Under the pieces are notes generated by a model. That model was not told where the DNA came from, did not search any database, and saw nothing but the letters and a program-made list of their open reading frames with translations. DNA of 42,251 bases. Source: Pirellulales bacterium (GTDB lineage: Bacteria > Planctomycetota > Planctomycetia > Pirellulales > DATAWG01). Where the stretch lies: positions 1-42,251 of the forward strand of contig DASZFO010000297.1 in NCBI GenBank assembly GCA_035939775.1. Direction: 5' to 3'. The translations under genes were made by a program, and so were the position numbers. This document shows positions 27,498 through 42,251 of this stretch, piece after piece (positions within the stretch are counted from its first letter, which is position 1; every line of letters begins with the position of its first letter).

Positions 27498-29351
27498 TTA
27501 AGCTGACCCAGGAGACGAACCTGTCGCGCGCAATGTGAACCAGAATGTGCTGCCGTGCCCCGGCTGGCTTTCGACGCCGATTCGGCCGCCGTGGGCTTCG
27601 ACGATTTCCTTGCAAAGCGAGAGCCCAAGGCCGGCGGCGCCGGCGCTAGAGCCCGGGATGCGGAAGAACCGCTCGAAGATGGCCGCGTGGTATTCCTTCG
27701 GAATTCCTTCGCCGGTGTCGCTGATCTCGAACCGCACGGCTGAATCGTCGGCGATTCCACGGACGCGGACGATTCCGCGATCCGGCGTATGCCGCAGGGC
27801 GTTGGCGATCAGGTTGTGAAAGACGATCTGAATCCTCTCGACGTCGGCCATCACCTGTTCGTGGATCAAGAGCGATTCGGCTTGCAACTGAATCTGCTTC
27901 TCGGCCGCCGCGCCGTGCAGCGGCACGACGGCTTCTTCAATCAGCTTGGCCGCGGCGACCGGCTGCAATTCCATCTCCATGCGGCCCGACTGGATGCGAG
28001 CCAGATCGAGCAGCTCGTCCACGGTGGCCTGAAGTCGCTCGCATTCCTCGCGGGCGGCGTGCAGAAGATCGGCCTGCTTGTCGGTCAAGGGGCCGGCAAC
28101 TCCTTCCAAACACAGATGCACGGCCATGCGGAGCGACGTGAGCGGCGTACGGAATTCGTGGGCAACCGTGGCTACAAGATTGTTTTTCAGCTCGTCGAGG
28201 CGCCGAAGCCGCGTCACGTCTTGGAGGATGGCGGTCGCGCCGGTAATCTTCCCCTCGTCTTCATAGACCGGATTGGCCCGCAGCAAGAACCAGCGATGCC
28301 CCTCGGCGCTGGGGACGTCGAAGGCGTCCTCGAAACCGTTGGGCAAGAACGCCCCTTTGCCCTGCAAGACGTGGGCCTTCGCACGATCGAGCGCCGAGCG
28401 CACGGCAGGTGGGAGCGTGACGAGGGTCTTCGAATCGGGTTCAAGACCATTGGTCTGCCAGAGCGAATCGGCCGCGCCGTTGGCCTTGAGGATGTTGCCT
28501 TCGGCGTTAAAGACGATCACCGGATCGGGGATGCTATCGATCGTGGCCTGCGAGGCGCGCTGGGCGAGCAGCAACTCACCGAGCGAACTCTCGCGGTATT
28601 CCTGTAAGTGCTCGGCCATCAGATTGAATTGCGTCGCGAGCTGCCCGATCTCGTCGCGGCTCATCACGAGCGCACGGGCGGCGAAGTCTTTCTGCCCGAG
28701 GCGGTTCACGGCCATAGTCAAGAGCGAGAGCGGGCGCAGCAGGCGTTGCGTCAGGAGGATCGAAGCGAGCGCCCCGACTACGAGCGCGCCGATCGCGACG
28801 GCGGCCACGATCGAGTTCGTCAACTGACCGGCGCGCAGCGCCGCGTCGGCCTTGCGCTGCATCGCAATCTCATTGATCTGCAAAATCTCGTCCGCATCAT
28901 CTTTGACGACGACGAATTGCGGCTGCAAGATGTCGAAATACTGCTTGTTCATCTGCTTGAGATCGGTAAGCTTCAAGTAGTCGGTCAAAAGGCCTTCGTA
29001 TTTGGTCCAAGCGTCTCTCAGCGTCTTGGTCGCCACGTCTTCGCGTTGATCGAATTCCGTGATGTTGTTCTCTTGGACCTGCAGTTCAGCCGCGAACTTG
29101 TTCCGATGCTCGGCGATTTGCGGCTCGGCCCGGTTCCTCTCTCCCGCGACGATGAAGATCGCGGCGCTGTCGAGCCGCTCGATCGATTCCTTCATCCGCT
29201 GGGCGGCCAAGACACTGCGGTAGTTGTCCTTGAGAATCAGTTCGGATTGGTGGCTAAGCGCCGATACTCTCCAGACAGCGACGACCCCCAGCAACACCAG
29301 CGCCAGGGCGAGAGGTAGTTGGGCAAGCAAGAGTTTCGCGCGGAGGCTCAT
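27498..29351 (-). CDS. Membrane histidine kinase (HAMP-PAS-HisKA-HATPase), partner of the KdpD sensor domain
   Basis: This 617-aa kinase has TM1 (~7-29), a periplasmic four-helix-type sensor, TM2 (~179-201), a HAMP linker, a PAS domain (~268-385), HisKA with phospho-acceptor His398 (HEFRTPLTSLRMAV) and a HATPase domain (N box NLIANALRHT, G box DTGEGIP, GLGLSLCKEIV). It starts at ATG 29351, overlapping the stop of the KdpD-like gene (ATGA), so the two are translationally coupled. In classic KdpD these parts are in one protein with a DUF4118 membrane domain; here DUF4118 is replaced by a HAMP/PAS sensor. A larger open frame upstream (to 29744) is an overlap with the neighbour. The likely response regulator is the NtrC-type gene at 37431, since no KdpE is seen. 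Confidence 0.88.
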   Translation of the reverse strand: MSLRAKLLLAQLPLALALVLLGVVAVWRVSALSHQSELILKDNYRSVLAAQRMKESIERLDSAAIFIVAGERNRAEPQIAEHRNKFAAELQVQENNITEFDQREDVATKTLRDAWTKYEGLLTDYLKLTDLKQMNKQYFDILQPQFVVVKDDADEILQINEIAMQRKADAALRAGQLTNSIVAAVAIGALVVGALASILLTQRLLRPLSLLTMAVNRLGQKDFAARALVMSRDEIGQLATQFNLMAEHLQEYRESSLGELLLAQRASQATIDSIPDPVIVFNAEGNILKANGAADSLWQTNGLEPDSKTLVTLPPAVRSALDRAKAHVLQGKGAFLPNGFEDAFDVPSAEGHRWFLLRANPVYEDEGKITGATAILQDVTRLRRLDELKNNLVATVAHEFRTPLTSLRMAVHLCLEGVAGPLTDKQADLLHAAREECERLQATVDELLDLARIQSGRMEMELQPVAAAKLIEEAVVPLHGAAAEKQIQLQAESLLIHEQVMADVERIQIVFHNLIANALRHTPDRGIVRVRGIADDSAVRFEISDTGEGIPKEYHAAIFERFFRIPGSSAGAAGLGLSLCKEIVEAHGGRIGVESQPGHGSTFWFTLRATGSSPGSA

Positions 29352-30496
29352 CGGCGCGGCTCCTTGTCGTCGAGCGACACGATGTGCAAATCGAAGCCGC
29401 GAGCTTCGTGGACCAACCGGTCGATCATGCTCCGCCCCAGGATGCGCTTCCACCAGGGTCTTTCCGAGCGGCCAATCACGATGTGACCGACGCCACGCGT
29501 GCGGGCGAAATCCAACAGCGCGGTCACCACGTCGTGCGCTTGGAGCCGAATCACCTCGGCCCCCAACTCCTTGGCCATCGAGATCGTGGCGATCAATTGC
29601 CGCTGCACGGCCGAATCGATGCGATTGGGGGCCTCGCCGGGCGTTTCCACATAGACGGCATACCAATCCGTATTGAGACGCCCAGCCAGGCGCGAGCCGC
29701 GCCGCAACAGGGCCGCCCCGCGCGGCGATTGCGATGCAATGCAAACCATCACGCGCTCGATAGTCGATTTGTGATCGTCGCCGCCGGTTAAACTCACGGC
29801 AGCGGTCCGATCGATGCTCTCGGCGACTTCGCGGAGTGCCAATTCCCGCAGGGCCGCGAGATTCTCCTGCCGGAAGAAATTGCCGAGCGCCGTATCGACT
29901 TTTTCCGCCGCATAGATTTTGCCCGACTTCAATCGATCGACCAGGTCTTCGATCGCCAGGTCGAGATTGACGATCTGATCGGCCTGCTTGAGAAAGGTGT
30001 CAGGAACCGTTTCGCGGATGACGACGCCGGTCGCCCGCTCGACTACGTCCTTGAGGCTCTCCAAATGCTGAATGTTAAGCGCCCCAATGACGTTGATTCC
30101 CGCGGCCAGGATGTCTTGCACGTCCTGGTAGCGCTTGTTGTGCCGCGAGCCTGGGGGATTGGTGTGCGGGAGTTCATCGACGATTGCGACGGCCGGATGC
30201 CGAGCCAGAATGCCGTCGAGGTCCATGTCGTCCACCTGGAAGCCGCGGTATTCCACCTTGCGGCGCGGCACGACCTCGAGCCCGTCGATGAGCGCGGCAG
30301 TTTCCGATCTGCCATGCGTTTCGACGAAGCCGATCACCACGTCCGTGCCGCGCTTTTGCAAGGCATGGGCTTCTTCGAGCATCCGGTAGGTCTTGCCCAC
30401 TCCGGCCGCGAAGCCGACATACAGCTTCAGCCGCCCTCGCTTGGAGCGCTCGACCAGTTCCAGAAAGTCTTCAGGACGTGGCTGCGCGCGAGTCAT
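29348..30496 (-). CDS. KdpD N-terminal sensor domain with universal-stress-protein domain (split KdpD)
   Basis: The 382-aa protein (ATG 30496; a TTG at 30517 is less likely) holds the KdpD domain: RLKLYVGFAAGVGKTYRML (Walker A, ~24-42), VAIVDELPHTNPPGSRHNKRYQDV (Walker B block), GINVIGALNIQHLESL, and DQIVNLDLAIEDLVDRLKSGKIY. A USP domain follows (~235-382, starting RVMVCIASQ; GHIVIGRSERPWWKRILGRS). In full KdpD this cytosolic half senses K+ and ATP status (and, in some bacteria, c-di-AMP) and is followed by DUF4118 and a kinase. Here it ends at TGA 29348, inside the start of a separate HK gene. The KdpD-only layout is known in other phyla, but the fusion partner differs. Confidence 0.93.
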   Translation of the reverse strand: MTRAQPRPEDFLELVERSKRGRLKLYVGFAAGVGKTYRMLEEAHALQKRGTDVVIGFVETHGRSETAALIDGLEVVPRRKVEYRGFQVDDMDLDGILARHPAVAIVDELPHTNPPGSRHNKRYQDVQDILAAGINVIGALNIQHLESLKDVVERATGVVIRETVPDTFLKQADQIVNLDLAIEDLVDRLKSGKIYAAEKVDTALGNFFRQENLAALRELALREVAESIDRTAAVSLTGGDDHKSTIERVMVCIASQSPRGAALLRRGSRLAGRLNTDWYAVYVETPGEAPNRIDSAVQRQLIATISMAKELGAEVIRLQAHDVVTALLDFARTRGVGHIVIGRSERPWWKRILGRSMIDRLVHEARGFDLHIVSLDDKEPRR

Positions 30497-30503
30497 GTGG
30501 TCT

Positions 30504-30848
30504 TCAGTTCGCCCCAAACTGGATGACGAGTCCTCCGAGAATAATGATGGCTAGTCCGGCCCAGGTCGAGAGCGGAATATGCTCATCGAGCGCGAACCGC
30601 CCAGCGAGAACGCTGACGAGGGCAAAAGCACCGACATAGACGCCGATTAACTTCGAGAAGTCCCATTTTACCGTGTTGACGACGACCCCATAAGTCGCCA
30701 ACAGCAGCCCGCCGCCGACAACCCAGGGCACACCGCCTCCGCGCAATCCTCTGCGAGTGACGGCATCACCTCCAGCTTCGATGGCGGCCGCAGCAAGAAA
30801 CACGAGCCATGCGACGGCGGATAAATCCCGTTGGTGCATGGGGGTCAT
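30504..30848 (-). CDS. Small four-helix membrane protein (EamA/SMR-like) in the kdp-1 operon
   Basis: The 114-aa protein starts at ATG 30848 overlapping the kdpC stop (ATGA). It has four hydrophobic helices: AVAWLVFLAAAAIEA, GVPWVVGGGLLLATYGVVV, LIGVYVGAFALVSVLAG, and STWAGLAIIILGGLVIQF. This size and the repeated small-residue helices resemble drug/metabolite (EamA) or small multidrug-resistance transporters. The position between kdpC and the KdpD sensor, with the KdpD start only 7 bases after its stop, suggests a role in the K+ response, but no function is established. The name is tentative. Confidence 0.65.
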   Translation of the reverse strand: MTPMHQRDLSAVAWLVFLAAAAIEAGGDAVTRRGLRGGGVPWVVGGGLLLATYGVVVNTVKWDFSKLIGVYVGAFALVSVLAGRFALDEHIPLSTWAGLAIIILGGLVIQFGAN

Positions 30849-31465
30849 TTTGCCGCTGGCTTGGGGCGCCCGAATTGGCGGTCCAACGCCAAATTCAAGG
30901 ATAGCACGTTCACGCGCGGCTCGCCCAACAGGCCGAAAGTGGGCGACTCGATCTGGTCCTTGACGACCTGTTGAACGCGCTCGGGCTTTTCGCCGCGTGC
31001 CTTGGCAATTCGCGGCACTTGCCAAAGAGCGGCCTGAGGGGACAGATTCGGGTCGAGTCCACTGGCTGACGTCGTGACAAGTTCGTCCGGGACGGGGCCG
31101 CTGGCGTCTGGATTTTCCTTTTGCAATCGCTCGACGTCTCCCTTGATGCGATCATACAGCGCCTGGGACGTAGGGCCGTAATTCGACGCCCCGGAATTCG
31201 TCGCGTTGTACGGTTTCGGCTTCGATGAATCGGCCTCGTCGTTGGTTGCCGAGGGGCGCGGCTGGACATAGGCCGGGTTCGTGAAATTCTGCCCGATCAA
31301 TTCCGAGCCGATGACAACCCCTTTGTCGTCGGTGACGAGGCTGCCGTTGGCTGCGTGAGGCGCGATCACCTGGGCCAAGCCTGTCATCAAGAAGGGATAC
31401 ACGATCCCAGTCAGAACCAGCGTCACGAGCGTCACGCGCAGGGCGATCATCAATTCGGATTTCAT
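30845..31465 (-). CDS. kdpC: Potassium-transporting ATPase subunit KdpC (kdp-1)
   Basis: The 206-aa protein (start ATG 31465, GGAG about ten bases upstream) has one TM (~8-30, TLVLTGIVYPFLMTGLAQVI) and the KdpC periplasmic domain: ANGSLV, GSELIGQNFTNPAYVQPRPSA, ASNYGPTSQAL, DELVTTSASGLDPNLSPQAALWQVPRIA, and FGLLGEPRVNVLSLNLALD. It stabilises the KdpA-KdpB complex and may raise K+ affinity. It starts 4 bases after the kdpB stop and overlaps the next gene's start, confirming one operon. Confidence 0.96.
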   Translation of the reverse strand: MKSELMIALRVTLVTLVLTGIVYPFLMTGLAQVIAPHAANGSLVTDDKGVVIGSELIGQNFTNPAYVQPRPSATNDEADSSKPKPYNATNSGASNYGPTSQALYDRIKGDVERLQKENPDASGPVPDELVTTSASGLDPNLSPQAALWQVPRIAKARGEKPERVQQVVKDQIESPTFGLLGEPRVNVLSLNLALDRQFGRPKPAAK

Positions 31466-31469
31466 TATC

Positions 31470-33575
<2,106 letters not shown>

Positions 33576-33585
33576 AATGGAAACC

Positions 33586-35580
33586 TTAATAAAGTTTGCC
33601 TTGGCCGGCGAGGAAGTGCTCCACAATCGGCCCCAGGCATTGCGCGGGAAAGAACGTCAAGGCGCCGACGATGACGATCACGCCGACCAATAGCACGGTG
33701 AATAGCGGCCCGTTGGTTGGAAACGTGCCCAGGCCCGGGGCCACCGTCTTCTTGCCCACCATCGAACCGGCGATCGCCAGCACGGGAACGATCATCAGAA
33801 ACCGCCCGGCGAGCATCACGATCGCTATCGTGACGTTCCAAAAATTCGTATTGGCATTGATCCCGGCGAACGCCGAGCCGTTGTTGCCGGCCGCGCTGGA
33901 ATAGGCATAGAGCATCTCCGAAAGCCCGTGCGGACCGTTGTTGTTGAGGGCCGAGCCCGTGGGGGCATGCTCTTTGTCGGAGTACCAATTGTCGGGCAGG
34001 TCGGGCACGGGCGCCTTATAGTCTGCCGGCGGTTTGGCCGGCGCCGGATGAGCCTTGGCGAAATCCGCTGCATAATCCGCGGCTCGCTTTTCGTAAACCG
34101 CCGACCAGCCGGCAAATCCGAGAATGATCGCCGGGAAAATCAGGATATAGAACATCGCGTACTTCATCTCGCGCGACTCGATCTTCTTACCTAGGTACTC
34201 GGGAGTGCGCCCGACCATCAGACCGGCGATGAAGACCGACAGGATGACGAACACGAGCATCGCATACAGCCCGGCCCCGACGCCGCCGAAGATCAATTCG
34301 CCGAGTTGAATGTTCGCCAGCGGCACCAGCCCGCCGAGCGGCGTGAAGCTGTCGTGCATGGAATTGACGGCGCCGCACGAGGTGTCGGTCGTCACGGTGG
34401 CGAACAGGGCCGAATTCGAGACGCCAAAGCGGACTTCCTTCCCCTCCATGTTCCCTTGCGGCTGAGCGATCTTGAAGCCTATCGGAGAACCGCTTGGGGA
34501 GAGGGGGACAGTCCCCTTTTGTTCCGAGGACTCCACAAAAGGGGACAGTCCCCGGCGGTTCTCCGATAGGCTCTTGGCCTTCTCCGCGACGGACGGAGTT
34601 GCCGCCGCCAGATCGGCCTCGAGCTTGTGGATTACCGGGTTGCCGCCGGATTCCGCCCAATAGGCGACGCTCACTCCCGTCAAAAACAAGAGCGACATCG
34701 CCGCGAAAATCGCCCAGCCCTGCCGTTGGTCGCCGGCCATGCTGCCGTAGGTGTAAGTCAAGGCGGCCCCAATGCTGAAGATCAACAGCAGCTCGACGAA
34801 ATTAGTCAGTGGCGTCGGGTTCTCGAACGGATGTGCGCTATTGGCGTTGAAGAATCCGCCGCCATTGGTGCCAAGTTCCTTGATCACTTCCTGCGAAGCC
34901 ACCGGGCCCATTGCGATGGTTTGCTTCCCGCCGTCGATGGTGGTCACTTCTTGATACGGCGAGAAGTTCTGAATGATTCCCTGCGTCACCAAAAACAGGC
35001 CGACCACGACGCTGATCGGCATTAACACGTACACGATCGAGCGAATCATATCGACCCAAAAGTTGCCGATCGTTCGCGCGGCGTCAGGGGCTAGGCGGCG
35101 TGTCAGCCCACGGGCCACCGCCAGCGCGACCGCAATCCCCGCCCCGGCCGATACGAAGTTATGCCACGCCAAGCCGGCCATCTCGCTGAGATAGCTCATC
35201 GTCGTTTCGGGCACGTACGACTGCCAATTCGTATTCGTGTTGAAGCTGACCGATGTGTTAAAGGCCAAATGTTCGGGCACTGCGGGCAATCCCTGCGGAT
35301 TGAGCGGCAAACGGTCTTGCAATCGCAGAATCCCATACGTGACGACGATGCCGAACAGACTGAACGCCAAGAGCGCCAGCGCATAGCGCTGCCAGGTTTG
35401 CTCGCGTTTTGGATCGACACCGCAAAGCCAATATAAAAACCGCTCGGTTGGCCCAAAGAACCGCGGCAGCGGTTGTTTCGAGCCTTCGAAGACTCGATAC
35501 ATGTACGCCCCGAGCGGCTTGGTGATCGCGAAGATCAGGACCGAAAACAGGCCGATTTGCAGCCAACCTTGCAGAGTCAT
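33586..35580 (-). CDS. kdpA: Potassium-transporting ATPase K+ channel subunit KdpA (kdp-1) with repeat-derived insert
   Basis: The 664-aa protein starts at ATG 35580 ([12 protein letters not shown]). The four K+-pore loops are clear: [51 protein letters not shown], and [15 protein letters not shown]. Typical KdpA is ~560-600 residues; the extra comes from a palindromic repeat translated in frame at residues ~336-368 ([16 protein letters not shown]..), between the AESGGNP and [10 protein letters not shown] landmarks in an extramembrane loop, and from a further insert before the fourth pore (~residues 510-550, [11 protein letters not shown]..). It channels K+ toward KdpB. Confidence 0.96.
34476..34573. 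repeat. Palindromic GGGGACAGTCCCC repeat, copy 2, inside kdpA
   Basis: The outer arms agcctatcggagaaccgc and gcggttctccgataggct enclose the same core as copy 1 (two ggggacagtcccc palindromes and ccttttgttcc..acaaaagg). Copy 1 reads gctatccgaaaaccgcc in its arm; the paired changes on both arms keep the stem intact. The frame is preserved and the repeat is part of the KdpA protein. Confidence 0.85.
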
Positions 35581-35601
35581 GGGGAAACTTCGTCCTTTAG
35601 T

Positions 35602-35699
35602 GCGGCTAACAAATCCGGCGGGGACTGTCCCCCTTTTGCGCAGTCCGCGGAGCAAAACGGGGACTGTCCCCTTCTCTCAGCCGGATTTGTTAGACGCGC
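35602..35699. repeat. Palindromic GGGGACTGTCCCC repeat, copy 3, between kdpF and kdpA
   Basis: Arms gctaacaaatccggc and gccggatttgttagacgcgc enclose the core in the opposite orientation (ggggactgtcccccttttgcg .. caaaacggggactgtcccc). It fills the whole kdpF-kdpA gap and ends exactly at the kdpF stop codon, so it would be in the operon mRNA as a strong hairpin just before the kdpA start. Confidence 0.85.
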
Positions 35700-35789
35700 T
35701 TAAAAATGTTCGGGGCGCACGAGCGCGTAAAGAAGATAGATGGTCAACAGCACCGTGACGATGCCGCCTAAGAGAAACTCGATGTCCAT
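35700..35789 (-). CDS. kdpF: KdpF, small membrane stabiliser of the Kdp complex
   Basis: This 29-aa single-helix protein reads MDIEFLLGGIVTVLLTIYLL followed by YALVRPEHF, ending at TAA (35700-35702). The pattern of one hydrophobic helix followed by (L/Y)YALxxPExF at the C-terminus is diagnostic of KdpF, and it directly precedes kdpA. In E. coli KdpF sits at the edge of KdpA and stabilises the complex with lipids. It is too short for usual gene callers. Confidence 0.93.
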   Translation of the reverse strand: MDIEFLLGGIVTVLLTIYLLYALVRPEHF

Positions 35790-35831
35790 GCGATATTTCC
35801 TGATGCCGTCGGCAGGGATGGGTCTTACGAC

Positions 35832-35915
35832 TTAGCAGTGCTCGCAGGCGCGAACGTATAGCCAACAGACCGCGAAAAATACAACGCAAGCGCTCACGAA
35901 AACTGTGTCCCACAT
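35832..35915 (-). CDS. 27-aa membrane peptide at the head of the kdp-1 operon
   Basis: The 27-codon frame (ATG 35915, TAA 35832) encodes MWDTVFVSACVVFFAVCWLY then VRACEHC: one hydrophobic helix with a short polar Cys-containing tail. Many kdp operons have an equally small helix peptide ahead of kdpF with a similar 'FF..A..YV..C' pattern (from memory, no search done). It lies 42 bases upstream of kdpF and about 44 bases after the predicted start of transcription, so it should be the first gene of kdp-1. Function unknown; it may be an additional stabilising helix or a leader peptide. Confidence 0.65.
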   Translation of the reverse strand: MWDTVFVSACVVFFAVCWLYVRACEHC

Positions 35916-35970
35916 AAACAGATTCCCCGCGTCGACTCTTGATTCCGAATAAACGTTGCCGGCAATGGAG

Positions 35971-35985
35971 GCAATTGGAGTGCCA
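35971..35985 (-). promoter_or_regulatory. Sigma-54 promoter for the kdp-1 operon
   Basis: On the minus strand the sequence is TGGCACTCCAATTGC. It has GG and GC doublets separated by exactly 10 bases and matches the consensus TGGCACG-N4-TTGC at all fixed positions except the G after TGGCAC. Transcription would start near 35959, about 44 bases before the 27-aa peptide gene. It implies that kdp-1 needs a sigma-54 activator, in line with the NtrC-type gene at 37431. Confidence 0.78.
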
Positions 35986-36063
35986 AACTCCTGGCGGACG
36001 CGCCAAGCAGCATCAGCGCAGCATCTTAAGGAACATTTACGCGGATGGCTTCCATCCCCGAGC

Positions 36064-36220
36064 ATTGCATCTTGCACTGAAGTCACGATGCGGCAATGCA
36101 AAATGCAATCACCGATCAGGATCGACTAAAGCCGCTAAGAGGACTGCGACCTGAGACATACCAGGCGACTGTTCGCTTCGACGCCCTGCAATTCGCAGGC
36201 GGAATATCGCAATATGCAAC
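36064..36220. promoter_or_regulatory. Candidate enhancer with four TGCAA-N2-TGCAA-type sites between divergent sigma-54 promoters
   Basis: Sites: 36064-36076 (TGCAAGATGCAAT on the minus strand), 36097-36109 (TGCAAAATGCAAT), 36187-36199 (TGCAATTCGCAGG) and 36208-36220 (CGCAATATGCAAC). Each holds two TGCAA-like half-sites 7 bases apart. The first two face each other as an inverted repeat. They lie ~105-260 bp upstream of both predicted start sites, the usual distance for NtrC-type activator binding, and their midpoint (36142) coincides with that of the two start sites. The binding protein is inferred. Confidence 0.5.
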
Positions 36221-36297
36221 CCGCCGGCGGACCGCGTCCGCGGCGATTGATTCTCGAAATCATTCCCCGCCACGGGCTTACGCGATCTTGATGGCCG

Positions 36298-36313
36298 CGG
36301 CACGCTCCTTGCT
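36298..36313 (+). promoter_or_regulatory. Sigma-54 promoter facing the orphan actuator-domain gene
   Basis: The plus-strand sequence is CGGCACGCTCCTTGCT, matching TGGCACG-N4-TTGCW at all fixed positions but the first. The GG-N10-GC spacing is exact. Transcription would start near 36324, leaving a ~290-base leader that contains palindromic repeat copy 4 before ATG 36614. Its divergent partner is at 35971-35985. Confidence 0.72.
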
Positions 36314-36392
36314 TTCATCCGAGTCGTCATTCGGTTCGTTGATCACGCGGCCCTGTTTAGAATTGCCGATCGATTCGCTGCCATCACGATTC

Positions 36393-36498
36393 AGAACCCC
36401 TCACAAAGCTGCCGGGGACTGTCCCCATTTTTGCGCAGTCCGCGGAGCAAAAACTGGGGACTCTCCCCTTCTCCCAGGCAGTTTTGTGGGGGGTTCTT
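36393..36498. repeat. Palindromic GGGGACTGTCCCC repeat, copy 4, in the leader of the orphan gene
   Basis: Arms agaacccctcacaaagctgcc and ggcagttttgtggggggttct pair with few mismatches around the same core as copy 3 (ggggactgtccccatttttgcgc .. gcaaaaactggggactctcccc). Its arms differ in sequence from copy 3 but again stay complementary to each other. Confidence 0.8.
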
Positions 36499-36613
36499 GG
36501 AGCACTTAACAATCCCTCTTGATGGCCGCGAGTTGTCGGTTTCTTTCTCTTCGCCCGAGAAAGGCTGCACGACCGGCGCCGCGGCCATCATTTTTTCTGC
36601 CGCAAGGTGTGCC

Positions 36614-37210
36614 ATGACCATCACTAATGTTCGCATCGCGCCGTACATTCGCGGTCCCGAACTTGATCCCGAATCGGTGAAAACGCCCTCACCGGCGAAT
36701 TGGATTCGTCGGTTGACGCGGCTTTGGGGCAGAGTTTTTGGAAACTCCACTGAATGCGGCGAGCAGCCTGCGATCGCTGCCTCGCCGGTTTCAAAAACGC
36801 ACTGGGCTTTCCGAGCGGTCAATTACCACCGACTTCACGCCGCGGGGATGCCGTGCGTAATCGCCGCGCCCTCGATCGCGGCCGGCATCTCGTCACATCT
36901 CGAACTCGAAGCGATCGTGCCGTCCGAATTGCAAGTGGGCGACGTCTTCCTCGTCGAGTCCGGTCAAACCATCTTTGCCGACGGCCTGATTCTCGAGGGA
37001 ATCGCCATAGTCGACGAGGCCGTCATTTCCGGCCAATCGGCGCCCGCCCTGCGTTCGGCCGATGGAGATAGCGCCGTCATGCGAGACAGCCACGTCATCG
37101 AAGGACAGATTCTAATCGAAGTGGCGCCCCGCCGCGGCCACCCACTGGATTGGATTAGCGAAGCGACCGTGGTCCGATGGCCGCCCGCGGCCGCTGTCGC
37201 TCGAAGATAG
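36614..37210 (+). CDS. Stand-alone KdpB actuator (A)-domain-like protein with inactivated TGES motif
   Basis: The 198-aa protein has no membrane segment. Residues ~102-180 align with the KdpB actuator domain: SELQVGDVFLVESGQTIFAD, GLILEGIAIVDEAVISGQSA (Kdp[40 protein letters not shown]), then PALRSADGDSAVMRDSHVIE matching the [18 protein letters not shown] region. The catalytic TGES loop, whose Glu drives dephosphorylation, is S139-G140-Q141-S142, so Glu is lost while the Ser is kept. Residues 1-100 are unassigned. AAGGTG lies seven bases before ATG 36614. The frame is open back to 36431 through a repeat. It runs divergently from kdp-1 behind a sigma-54 promoter and could bind or regulate KdpB; a decaying kdpB fragment is the alternative. 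Confidence 0.72.
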   Translation: MTITNVRIAPYIRGPELDPESVKTPSPANWIRRLTRLWGRVFGNSTECGEQPAIAASPVSKTHWAFRAVNYHRLHAAGMPCVIAAPSIAAGISSHLELEAIVPSELQVGDVFLVESGQTIFADGLILEGIAIVDEAVISGQSAPALRSADGDSAVMRDSHVIEGQILIEVAPRRGHPLDWISEATVVRWPPAAAVARR

Positions 37211-37223
37211 CATTCGCGGTTAA

Positions 37224-37310
37224 GAGCCTATCCGAGAACCGCCGGGGACTGTCGCCTTTTGTGGAGTCTTCGGACCAAAAGGGGACTATCCCCCTCTCCG
37301 CGAGCTAAGA
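37224..37310. repeat. Palindromic GGGGACTGTC repeat, copy 5 (degenerate)
   Basis: The left arm agcctatccgagaaccgccg and the core (ggggactgtcgccttttgtgg .. ccaaaaggggactatccccc) are present, but the matching right arm (expected ggcggttctcggataggct) is missing and replaced by unrelated bases. It sits between the converging orphan gene and the NtrC-type gene and may help terminate both. Confidence 0.7.
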
Positions 37311-37330
37311 GCGCTTCACAAAACCGGAAT

Positions 37331-37408
37331 GGGTGCCATGCCCACGGCTCGGCGTGGGCAGGAGCCCCAATGAGGCATGGCCACTCAGGGCAGTGGCCAT
37401 GGCACCCA
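37331..37408. repeat. Nested palindrome GGGTGCCATG..CATGGCACCC
   Basis: The outer arms gggtgccatgcc and ggccatggcaccc enclose an inner hairpin tgcccacg..cgtgggca. It follows repeat copy 5 between two converging genes, a place suited to a bidirectional terminator. Confidence 0.6.
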
Positions 37409-37430
37409 ACGATTCAGCATTAAGGCTCCG

Positions 37431-38822
37431 CTAGGCATCGCTTCGCTCCGGACCCTCGTATTTCTTCCGTTTTCGCCACAGCGTCGAGCTGTCGATGCCG
37501 AGGATCCGCGCGGCGTCGTCCAGTGTGGCGCTGCGCGCAAGCACGGAGAGAACGTGTTGGCGCTCGATCTCCTCCAGCGAGAAATCGCCCCCCAACTGCG
37601 GCGATGAGCCACTGCGCGAATGCATTCGCTCGGGCAAGGCTTGTGGCTCGACCACCTGCGCCGGCCAAAGGATGACGGCACGTTCCATCGCGTTGCGCAG
37701 CTCGCGAACGTTGCCGGGCCAGGCGTACGACAGCAGCACCTCTTCCGTCGCTTTCGACATTTCGGGCGTGGGCCGTCCGACCGAATGGCCGAAGAACGCC
37801 AGGAAGCGCCGCGCGAGAATGATGAGATCTTCCGGCCGCTCGCGCAATGCGGGAACGTGAATCTCGATCACGTTCAGACGAAATAGCAGGTCCTCGCGAA
37901 AATGGCCGGATTTCACATCGACTTCGAGATCGCGATTGGTCGCGGCGACCACCCGCACGTCGGCCTTGCGCGTGCGCGTCTCGCCGAGCCGCTCGAACTG
38001 CTTTTCCTGCAAGAATCGCAGCAGCTTAGCTTGCAGACCGGGAGTGATTTCGGCGATTTCGTCGAGAAAGAGCGTGCCACCTTCGGCCGCCTCGACGCGC
38101 CCCGGCTGATCGCGCACGGCGCCGGTAAACGCCCCTTTCGCATGACCGAAGAGTTCGCTGGTCAGCAGGTTCTCGGAAAGCGTAGGACAGTTGACAACGA
38201 CGAACGGCTTCGTGCGGCGCCGGCTTTGAGCGTGCAGGGTGCGGGCCAGCACTCCCTTGCCCGTGCCGCTTTCACCGCGCAGCAGCACGGCCACTTCCGA
38301 ATCGGCAGCCCGGCCAAGCACGTCGAGCGCCGCCTGCATTTTCGGCGACCGCGTCTCGAGCACTGTCTCGGGCACGGCCAGCTTGAGCTGCTGGTCGAGT
38401 TCGGCCAGTCGGCCGAGCGTGGCCATTCGTTCGGTGAGCTTGGCGACGAGGTGGCGGATCTGATCGGGCGTGAAGGGCTTTGGGAGATAATCGGCGGCCC
38501 CGCGCTTGATCGCCTCGACGGCCGTGTCGAACGTCGCGTAGGCAGTGAGCACCACCGCGGCCAGGTTCGGATTTTCAGCTAACAGCTTGGGCAGCAGATC
38601 CAGCCCGCTCGATTCGCCGATCTTGAGATCGACGAAGGCCACGTCGAACGGCCGCTGAGTGACCGCCGCCAAGGCCATTTCAGCCGAGGCCGAGGCAACT
38701 ACCTCGCAGCCGATGTCTTCCAGGCAAACGGCGAGCGTGCGACGGATGTTTTTTTCGTCGTCAACGACAAGCACCCGCAGGCCTCGCATCGAGGATGCGC
38801 CAAGTTGCTCGGGCCGGGGCAT
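37431..38822 (-). CDS. NtrC-type sigma-54-dependent response regulator
   Basis: The 463-aa protein (ATG 38822, GAGG seven bases upstream; an open extension to 38885 is unlikely) has a receiver domain (~14-125) with the acidic DDE pocket (VVDDEKN), phosphorylated Asp65 (AFVDLK) and Lys of the KPF motif. The AAA+ domain holds Walker A GESGTGKG (183-190), the sigma-54 contact loop GAFTGA (230-235) and Walker B LFLDEI. A Fis-type helix-turn-helix ends the protein (~415-460, [21 protein letters not shown]). It is placed next to the sigma-54 promoter of kdp-1 and downstream of kdp-2, and no OmpR-type KdpE is seen. I infer that it is phosphorylated by the kdp-1 kinase and activates the Kdp promoters. 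Confidence 0.93.
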
Positions 38823-38898
38823 GAAATCCTCGTGCCTATGCCGGAATAGCAAGGCAATCTGAAGGACGATTCGTGTGACAGCCAACGCGGAGGGGCCA

Positions 38899-39023: not shown

Positions 39024-39407
39024 TCACGATAACTCGTATTTCTTCCGCTTTCGCCAAAGGGTCGAAAGGTCGATGCCCAGGATGCGGGCCGCCTCGTCGA
39101 GCGTGCTGGTCCGAGCCAGGACCGCCGAAACGTGACGGCGCTCGATCTCGTCAAGCGTGAAGTCGCCGCCGAGATCCGGCAGGCATTGTGCATAAACCTG
39201 CACGGATTGGGCAAATGCTTGTGGGCCGACGTCAGACGCGCGCTCGATGGCGGGGAGCAATTGCTCGGGTGAACGTGCCGCCGCGGCCTCGCAGCCCGCG
39301 CCCGCAGCGTAGACCGCGAGTGAGATGCGATCCTCCTTGTTGTTGGCAATTGTGAACACGCGCACAGGTTGCGCGGAAGACCCGTTGGGTGAGTCGTGTC
39401 GCGCCAT
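39024..39407 (-). CDS. Shrunken NtrC-type regulator: degenerate receiver start fused to a Fis helix-turn-helix
   Basis: This 127-aa protein is homologous at both ends to the regulator at 37431 but lacks the AAA+ domain and most of the receiver. Residues ~15-58 (VRVFTIANNKEDRISLAVYA..GCE) align with [23 protein letters not shown]; the acidic pocket DDE is NNK, so phosphorylation is unlikely. Residues ~79-125 match its C-terminus in about 38 of 47 positions (LGGDF.L.EIER.HV...[25 protein letters not shown]). The reading frame survives across the junction. It lies 36 bases after kdpC of kdp-2, hence probably in that operon. It may bind the same sites without activating, acting as a repressor or decoy; it may also be a decaying gene. 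Confidence 0.75.
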   Translation of the reverse strand: MARHDSPNGSSAQPVRVFTIANNKEDRISLAVYAAGAGCEAAAARSPEQLLPAIERASDVGPQAFAQSVQVYAQCLPDLGGDFTLDEIERRHVSAVLARTSTLDEAARILGIDLSTLWRKRKKYELS

Positions 39408-39443: not shown

Positions 39444-40511
39444 TTACGGCTTGCCGCCGGTCGTCGCTCCGTATTTGTTGTCTAGTGCGAGGTTGATTTC
39501 CAGGACGTTGACCATCGGCTCTCCCCACGCGCCGCCCAGGGGAGCCGAACTCTTTTCCTTCAGCAAGGTTTCAATTTCGTCGTGGACCTTCTTCACGTCG
39601 GCCTTGGTGTCCTTGGCCCAGGCCCCGGCCACGCCATCCAATTGGAACATCGCGTTGGCCAAGGTGATGTGCGGATCGAGCCCGGAACCGGACGTTGTCG
39701 CCCAATCGCCGGGAACGTCGTTCAATTCAACAGTCGGATTGTCCGTCAGCCACATGTCGAAGAAATGCGCTTGGATGTCAGTCTGAGTATCGGAGCCCTT
39801 GTCGACAGGCTCGATGGCCGTCGTGCTGGTCTTGCCGTCAGCCGACATGTGGGTCACCGACGAGGGGAATTTGCCCGGATGCTCTTTAGAAAATGACTCG
39901 AAGAACACCATGGCCAAATCGGACGGCGAGGGATCGGAATTGTCGGGATTGTCTTTTTTGAACTTCTCGACGATTGCCGCGTGAGTCTTCTCCCAATCCA
40001 ACACATACTGCTGCTGCGGCGTGGGATTCTTGGCATCGAATGTCGTGCCGACCCATCCCTGGGCCACACTGTTGTGGAGATCGGCCCATTGGGCCACGAT
40101 CGACGGCTGGCCTTGGAATTTATCCTTGTGGAACCATTCCTCGACATCGGGAGCGACATTCTGGTCCTTCTTGGGACCGGTCTTATACGTGACGACCGGG
40201 CCGAGCGCATTGGCTACGCGATCCCGCAGCGCATAATTCGACACCGCCAGCGCCGACGACGTGGACGAAGTCGCATCGTAGGGCGTCGAGATCGCCGAGG
40301 GGCGCGGCGTAAAATGCTCGGGTTTCGCAAATGGCTGGGCGATCAACAACGATCCCACAGGCTTGCCGTCCGGTCCGTTGACGATGCTGCCGTTGGCCTG
40401 GAAGGGAAACACGGTCTGGCCGATTCCCCACAGTACCAGCGGATAGATGACGCAACAGATGACGACCGAAAAGAGCAGAAGCCAGAGGCTCTTGGAAATG
40501 ATTTTGAACAT
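39444..40511 (-). CDS. kdpC: KdpC subunit with a ~165-residue insertion (kdp-2)
   Basis: The 355-aa protein starts at ATG 40511 (GGAG about nine bases upstream). TM ~7-29 and KdpC landmarks are present: FQANGSIV, GSLLIAQPFAKPEHFTPRPSAIS, ALAVSNYALRDRVA at the front; SGSGLDPHITLANAMFQLDGVA and LGGAWGEPMVNVLEINLALDNKYG at the back. Normal KdpC is ~190-210 aa. Between the two halves is an extra region (~residues 100-265) rich in Trp, Asp and Lys (VEEWFHKDKFQGQPSIVAQW) that I cannot assign. It lies outside the membrane and could add a ligand or partner site. It follows kdpB-2 by 28 bases. Confidence 0.92.
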   Translation of the reverse strand: MFKIISKSLWLLLFSVVICCVIYPLVLWGIGQTVFPFQANGSIVNGPDGKPVGSLLIAQPFAKPEHFTPRPSAISTPYDATSSTSSALAVSNYALRDRVANALGPVVTYKTGPKKDQNVAPDVEEWFHKDKFQGQPSIVAQWADLHNSVAQGWVGTTFDAKNPTPQQQYVLDWEKTHAAIVEKFKKDNPDNSDPSPSDLAMVFFESFSKEHPGKFPSSVTHMSADGKTSTTAIEPVDKGSDTQTDIQAHFFDMWLTDNPTVELNDVPGDWATTSGSGLDPHITLANAMFQLDGVAGAWAKDTKADVKKVHDEIETLLKEKSSAPLGGAWGEPMVNVLEINLALDNKYGATTGGKP

Positions 40512-40539: not shown

Positions 40540-42251
40540 TCAGGCCATGTGCAGGGCGACCATCATCGGGTAAATCACGACGTCGATTAATTTGATGCCG
40601 ATGAACGGCAGGACTACGCCGCCTAGACCCCAAATCAGCAGGTTCTTGCGCAGCAGCGCATCGGCCCCCAGCGGCTGATACTTGACCCCTCGCAACGCCA
40701 CTGGAATCAAGGCCGGGATGATCAAAGCGTTGAAGATCACCGCCGACAGGATGGCCGAGGTCGGCGTATGCAGATACATGATGTCGATCTTCTTCAGCCA
40801 CGGCAGCGTGCCGGCGAACAGCGCCGGGATAATCGCGAAATACTTCGCCACGTCGTTGGCGATCGAGAAGGTCGTCAGCGCGCCGCGGGTCATCAGAAGC
40901 TGCTTGCCGATCTCGACGACTTCGATCAGCTTGGTCGGGTCGCTGTCGAGGTCCACCATGTTGGCCGCTTCCTTTGCGGCCTGGGTGCCGGCATTCATCG
41001 CGAGCGCGACGTCGGCCTGAGCAAGAGCGGGGGCGTCGTTGGTGCCATCGCCCATCATGGCGACGAGCTTACCTTCGGCCTGCTGCTTCCGCAGGTATTC
41101 CAGCTTGGTTTCGGGCGTGGCTTGCGCGACGAAGTCGTCCACTCCGGCTCGCTTGGCGATGGTGGCTGCCGTGAGCGGGTTGTCGCCCGTGATCATGACA
41201 GTTCGAAGCCCCATCTTTCGCAGCCGCTCGAAGCGCTGTTCCATCTCGGGCTTGAGAATGTCCTCGAGCACGATGACGCCCTTGATCTGATTTCCTTCGC
41301 AGACGGCCAGGGGCGTGGCGCCTTCCGACGCAATGCGCTCAACGACTTTGGTCATTTCCGTTGGCACCATGCCCCGCTCCGCTTGGACAAACCTCGCGAT
41401 CGCGTCGGGCGCGCCCTTGCGAATCCGTCGACCGTCGTCGAAATCGACGCCGCTCATCCGCGTTTGCGCGGAGAACGCGACGAATTGGGCCGAGGTCGGT
41501 AGATCAGCGTGGTTCTTGGCTTGTCCCTCGTAAAGTTTGACAATGCTTTTCCCCTCCGGCGTCTCGTCCGCCGCCGAGGACAGAGCGGCCAATCGGCCAA
41601 CCTCTTCGCTCGAATGATTGCCGACGGGTATGAACTGAGTCGCATGGCGATTGCCCACCGTGATCGTTCCGGTCTTGTCGAGGAGCACAAGATCCACGTC
41701 GCCGGCCAGCTCGACCGCCTTGCCGCTCTTGGCGATGATGTTCGCCTGGAGCGCCCGCTCCATGCCGGCGATGCCGATCGCGGCCAACAGCGCGCCGATT
41801 GTCGTTGGGATCAAGCAAACCAACAGGGCTACGAGCGTGGGGACGTCGGTGCCGAGGCTGTGCAACGGGTCCGAAGAAAGGCCAAATTGACCCACCATGT
41901 ACTGTTCGGCTTGGTAAGCCATCGGCCACAGCGGGATGACAACGATAAGAAAGATCAATGTCAAGGCGGAGAGGGCCAGAGTGAGCGCGATCTCGTTCGG
42001 GCTGCGTTGGCGAATGGCGCCTTCCACCAGTGCGATCATCCGATCGAGGAATGATTCGCCGGCCCCGCTCGTGATGCGAACCACGATCCGGTCGGAAGTG
42101 ACCGTCGTGCCGCCGGTGACACCGGAGCGGTCGCCGCCCGATTCGCGGATCACGGGGGCCGATTCGCCGGTTATCGCTGACTCGTCGATCGAGGCGATCC
42201 CTTCGATGATCTCGCCGTCGCCGGGAATGACTTGTCCCGCCTCGACGACAA
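40540..42251 (-). CDS. kdpB: Potassium-transporting P-type ATPase KdpB, second system (5' end beyond window)
   Basis: The frame is open from the right window edge ([20 protein letters not shown]..) to the stop at 40540, so the N-terminal membrane part is missing but ~570 residues are visible. TGES is intact (ITGESAPV), and [31 protein letters not shown], and [12 protein letters not shown] are present, so the pump is likely active. Compared with kdp-1 KdpB it has a longer loop after the second membrane pair ([16 protein letters not shown]). kdpF and kdpA of this set should lie just outside the window. It is part of an operon with the long kdpC and probably the shrunken regulator. Confidence 0.96.

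Follow-up and report, generated by a model that had tools for sequence, protein, structure and literature searches.

A predicted sigma-54, enhancer-dependent control region upstream of a kdp operon in a planctomycete-type genome

In the classical KdpDE system of E. coli, KdpD is a single protein, KdpE is an OmpR-type regulator, and transcription depends on sigma-70. NtrC-type enhancer-promoter regions carry paired palindromic sites ~80-150 bp upstream of the -24/-12 element. In D. vulgaris Hildenborough, the kdpFABC operon is controlled by DVU3334, a sigma-54 response regulator encoded in that same operon, and KdpD is split (PMC3333781, PMC4641369). Because DVU3334 already regulates kdpFABC in that organism, sigma-54 control of kdp is not new, and an earlier note on the present DNA, which had called such control unusual, overlooked this precedent. 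For planctomycetes, no report of kdp under sigma-54 was found in the literature searched, and a 2025 sigma-54 survey that covers planctomycetes makes no mention of kdp or potassium. Here, we describe an intergenic region that, judged from sequence comparison, is very likely a sigma-54/enhancer control region for a kdp operon (operon 1), activated by the regulator encoded at 37431-38885.

The window, that is, the whole stretch of 42,251 nucleotides analysed, is contig C297 of a 6.39 Mb genome in 384 contigs. The genes found in its relatives and its REP-like palindromes would fit a planctomycete. Operon 1 is read from the minus strand. Its first ORF after the promoter is a small open frame for a one-helix membrane protein (MWDTVFVSACVVFFAVCWLYVRACEHC, 35832-35915), located just before kdpF (35700-35789, 29 aa); similar small ORFs, read by eye, precede kdpF in several relatives. 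kdpA1 (33586-35580; Pfam KdpA; start probably ATG 35580), kdpB1 (31470-33626 for the ORF as listed; Pfam E1-E2 ATPase and Hydrolase; best match KdpB of kdp loci) and kdpC1 (30845-31489; Pfam KdpC) follow. kdpA1 contains an in-frame insert of ~49 residues (window 34504-34553) that is absent from four relatives in the alignment and leaves the frame open. The DNA of this insert holds a REP-like palindrome pair (GGGGACAGTCCCC), which is also found elsewhere in the window. The operon continues with a 389-aa ORF (29348-30517) that has the KdpD sensor domain and Usp (Pfam) and lacks a kinase domain, and with a separate HAMP-PAS histidine kinase (27498-29744; Pfam), the second half of a split KdpD, as in related loci with the same order. 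An NtrC-type gene near kdp, as the earlier note had it, is indeed present at 37431-38885 on the minus strand. Its product, P0002, has a receiver domain, an AAA+ domain with GAFTGA and a Fis HTH, and it is the likely activator, its orthologues being linked to kdp. In addition, a 127-aa HTH-only ORF (39024-39407, minus) matches the HTH of the regulator at 64% over 69 aa (tblastn) without an AAA+ domain; it could be a decayed duplicate of the regulator, or it might compete with the regulator for its sites.

We scored sigma-54 promoters on both strands of the window with a weight matrix whose weights are approximate. Among 84,472 positions, the two top-scoring sites are the two proposed in the earlier note. 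The plus-strand element CGGCACGCTCCTTGCT (36298-36313; predicted start ~36324) ranks first with a score of 15.8. The minus-strand element that faces operon 1, TGGCACTCCAATTGC (35985->35971, listed also as TGGCACTCCAATTGCC; about 35970-35985), ranks second with 12.6 and has its predicted start at ~35959. Both show the GG-N10-GC layout with TGGCAC/TTGC, and rpoN is encoded in the genome. A scan of 35700-37450 against Rfam yielded no hit that exceeded the gathering scores. The exact TGGCAC-N5-TTGC string alone is weak evidence, because the 6.39 Mb genome contains 21 copies and the reversed control 10 (~two-fold). This modest excess would suit a chance pattern, in which functionless sigma-54-like, TGCA-rich sequence lies upstream of a kdp operon transcribed from a housekeeping promoter. 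However, the motif, its spacing, its location and its conservation occur jointly, and no sigma-70-type promoter was found at 35600-37500, so that we consider a chance origin very improbable. The case is carried by combining the promoters with the TGCA-N3-TGCA sites that lie between them.

These sites are real, and they lie between the promoters as the earlier note had said, but they are better described as TGCA-N3-TGCA than as TGCAA-N2-TGCAA. Two are perfect: TGCATCTTGCA (36066-36076) and TGCAAAATGCA (36097-36107), located 81 and 112 bp from the kdp promoter, with gaps counted from the 11-bp site to the first G of the -24 GG. The other two, TGCAATTCGCA (36187-36197) and CGCAATATGCA (36208-36218), have one mismatch each and are 101 and 80 bp from the plus promoter. 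In dinucleotide shuffles of the 312-bp stretch (n=5,000), the mean was 0.01 perfect sites and 0.23 sites with at most one mismatch, and none of the 5,000 reached two and four. The sites had been taken for one enhancer shared by the two promoters. Since the gaps are kept per promoter, they instead form two separate pairs, one per promoter, at 80-81 and 101/112 bp.

The same distances recur outside the window. At the second kdp operon of the same genome, on contig C312 (locus L127), the gaps on the two sides are 81/102 and 101. In the relatives they are 101 (L119), 79/102 (L120), 102 and 99 on the two sides (L121) and 80/101 (L122); L009, L056 and L177 are exceptions, with 42-86 bp. When bins taken from the plus promoter of the window alone were tested on ten other promoters, which are partly related, and one-mismatch sites were counted, eight of the ten fell in the bins against 0.8 expected (P below 4e-5). 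The whole 6.39 Mb genome has four instances of a site combined with a promoter core at 72-102 bp; the two kdp operons account for two of these, and the reversed control gives two. Conserved upstream activator sites at a constrained distance, as looked for in a sigma-54 promoter, are therefore present. The predicted spacing rule, with sites at about 80 and 101 bp and thus separated by two helical turns, is unusually clean.

The sites also follow the regulator into other genomes. Among 77 genomes (our own and 76 relatives), a clear P0002 orthologue is present in four others, at ~50% identity and 460-475 bits against at most 340 for the rest. In all four loci, L119-L122, the regulator is divergent from kdpFABC, and the genes for the kinase and the KdpD-sensor protein come after that of the regulator. 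kdp-linked orthologues are also found in L009, L056, L163, L166 and L178, and 19 of 392 genomes sampled across the phylum match P0002 at the same threshold. Wide use of the regulator in this order was considered and rejected, with an orthologue in seven of 396 order genomes. A perfect TGCA-N3-TGCA site is present upstream of kdp in the relatives L009, L026, L119, L120 and L122, and also at the second operon of the window's own genome. Further perfect sites lie before a kinase-kdp operon (L056), before a regulator-kinase-kdp operon (L161) and between regulator and kinase (L177 and L181); altogether, 34 scanned loci hold 22 perfect sites, with 4.2 expected. We compared 12 regulator-tied loci with 132 others; the loci with a divergent regulator are kin and not phylogenetically independent, so the counts are not fully independent. 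A perfect site no more than 900 bp upstream of kdpA is present in 5/12 against 4/132 (P = 1.7e-4), and a strong sigma-54 site (score of at least 10.5) in 8/12 against 15/132 (P = 4e-5). Only the window, L119, L120, L127 and L026 combine a perfect site with a strong sigma-54 site at matching spacing across these loci, and the contig of L026 ends before the point where the regulator could be seen. The conservation of promoter and TGCA sites in related genomes, which the earlier note had named as a check, is thus observed.

L163, L166 and L009 (another phylum) share the kdpABC-sensor-kinase order of operon 1, with the regulator convergent at the end. The KdpA of operon 1 is 54-57% identical to those of the L163/L166/L009-type loci and 30-37% to those of the regulator-bearing relatives in its own order, which makes horizontal acquisition of operon 1 plausible. 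The window regulator groups with the L009 regulator (support 0.865). Within the phylum, the closest regulator-linked kdp loci are L163 and L166, and neither has a perfect TGCA site. The L163 regulator has the recognition helix TTVWRTKK, not STLWRKRK, and TGCA-N3-TGCA is missing upstream of its kdp genes, hinting that helix and site changed together. The L166 regulator has the STLWRKRK helix, yet only one-mismatch sites are present there. Some near relatives of the window regulator are not near kdp (L164, L165), and the regulator may therefore have other targets.

Together, the conserved sites, the promoter and the fixed spacing support a sigma-54, enhancer-dependent kdp promoter, as the earlier note had proposed. 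We infer the following course for its action. At low K+, the split sensor, composed of the KdpD-sensor/Usp protein and the separate histidine kinase, would phosphorylate the 37431-38885 regulator. Bound as dimers to the TGCA-N3-TGCA sites at 36066 and 36097, the regulator would then form an AAA+ ring. The ring would loop to RNA polymerase-sigma54 at 35970-35985 and open the promoter, and the small ORF-kdpFABC-sensor-kinase operon would be transcribed. Alternatively, another Fis-type activator might bind the TGCA sites, as the genome encodes at least 14 P0002-like proteins. This is unlikely: the other paralogues score far lower (the next in the genome has 321 bits), and in relatives the motif tracks the P0002 orthologue group, standing beside its genes and kinases even where kdpABC is not in view (L177, L181, L165). 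We thus keep P0002 as the candidate activator.

In the divergent pair that the earlier note had placed over kdp, the minus promoter does face the kdp operon, but there is no sign of a functional gene behind the plus promoter. Downstream of it lie REP-like palindromes and an orphan KdpB-actuator-like ORF (36614-37210, plus; Pfam), which is possibly decayed and is itself flanked by REP-like palindromes. No standalone relative of this ORF was found in 316 genomes, where matches lie only inside full-length P-type ATPases. The same geometry is seen in other divergent pairs: one in L121, a relative from the same family, with its second promoter directed at the regulator gene, and one at the kdp2 operon of the window's own genome. 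The plus site is probably a genuine sigma-54 promoter, whose counterpart in relatives drives the regulator gene; in the window, the gene behind it was probably lost or rearranged. It was probably once an autoregulatory promoter whose gene has been displaced. Around the plus promoter, TCTTGATGGCCGCG is present as an exact direct repeat and TGATGGCCGCGGC is present again in inverted form (36286-36299, 36517-36530, 36578-36590), hinting at a local rearrangement.

A refinement of the main explanation has, in our estimate, an even chance of being right. Only the minus (kdp) promoter would be functional, and the plus site would be a decaying remnant of an ancestral divergent promoter that drove the regulator gene and stayed in place when the regulator was relocated or inverted. 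What the plus promoter faces and the orientation of its L121 counterpart favour this refinement, as does the one mismatch in each plus-side site where the kdp-side sites are perfect. Two features of the plus -24/-12 element speak against a long decay, however: no other element in the window scores higher, and the spacing (80/101) is exact.

In the preferred reading of a control region activated by P0002, the second kdp operon would extend the reach of the regulator. The genome has two KdpA genes and two KdpC genes, and both KdpC genes are within the window. kdpC2 (39444-40511, minus; 59% to the L120 KdpC) and kdpB2 (40540-42251, minus, cut by the contig end) belong to the second operon. The kdpB of C312 is 96% identical to kdpB2 in protein and 87% in DNA, so C312, which carries kdpFA2B, is either the upstream portion of the second operon, a duplicate of it or an allele. 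The two kdpB copies are each at a contig end (C312 1-2152; window 40540-42251), which may mean that the gene was duplicated recently or that the assembly mixes two strains. Should the second operon begin the way it does in C312, the regulator gene would close a sigma-54-driven kdp2 operon and would thus be autoregulated. The second operon is probably driven by the same regulator. A wider scheme can be drawn, which we consider rather improbable: one NtrC-type regulator would coordinate two kdp pumps of different ancestry via near-identical, helically phased enhancer pairs, and the divergent sigma-54 promoter would now drive a potassium-responsive non-coding/antisense transcript toward the 3' end of the regulator gene.

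Sigma-54/enhancer control of Kdp has been described experimentally for a sulfate reducer, and it is very probably at work in planctomycete-type bacteria and other phyla too. The predicted binding motif, TGCA-N3-TGCA, and the ~80/101 bp rule offer a concrete means to find and test such systems. Like E. coli KdpDE, the locus would place kdpFABC under two-component control, and it has a KdpD-type sensor domain. Unlike E. coli KdpDE, KdpD sensor and kinase are not in one protein (the 389-aa KdpD+Usp ORF stands apart from the kinase), the regulator linked to kdp belongs to the NtrC type and is accompanied by sigma-54 sites, and a scan of ORFs neighbouring operon 1 showed no OmpR-type KdpE. Compared with NtrC-type regions in general, the locus differs in its target, a K+ pump, and in that each of two divergent promoters has its own pair of sites. 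It comes closest to the DVU3334 system (PMC3333781, PMC4641369), to which we liken it by gene content and regulator type (PMC3333781): kdpFABC, a KdpD divided between a sensor+UspA ORF and a kinase ORF of its own, and a linked NtrC-type regulator with GAFTGA, whose proposed target here is kdpFABC. For the DVU3334 system, we found no mention, in the passages of the cited accounts that were covered, of paired sites, of a fixed 80/101 spacing or of a divergent promoter pair. In that system, as its accounts describe it, the binding site is upstream of the kdp genes, and the candidate sites of the window are likewise upstream; the DVU3334 regulator lies inside the same operon, whereas that of the window is 1.5 kb upstream and comes after a second kdp operon.
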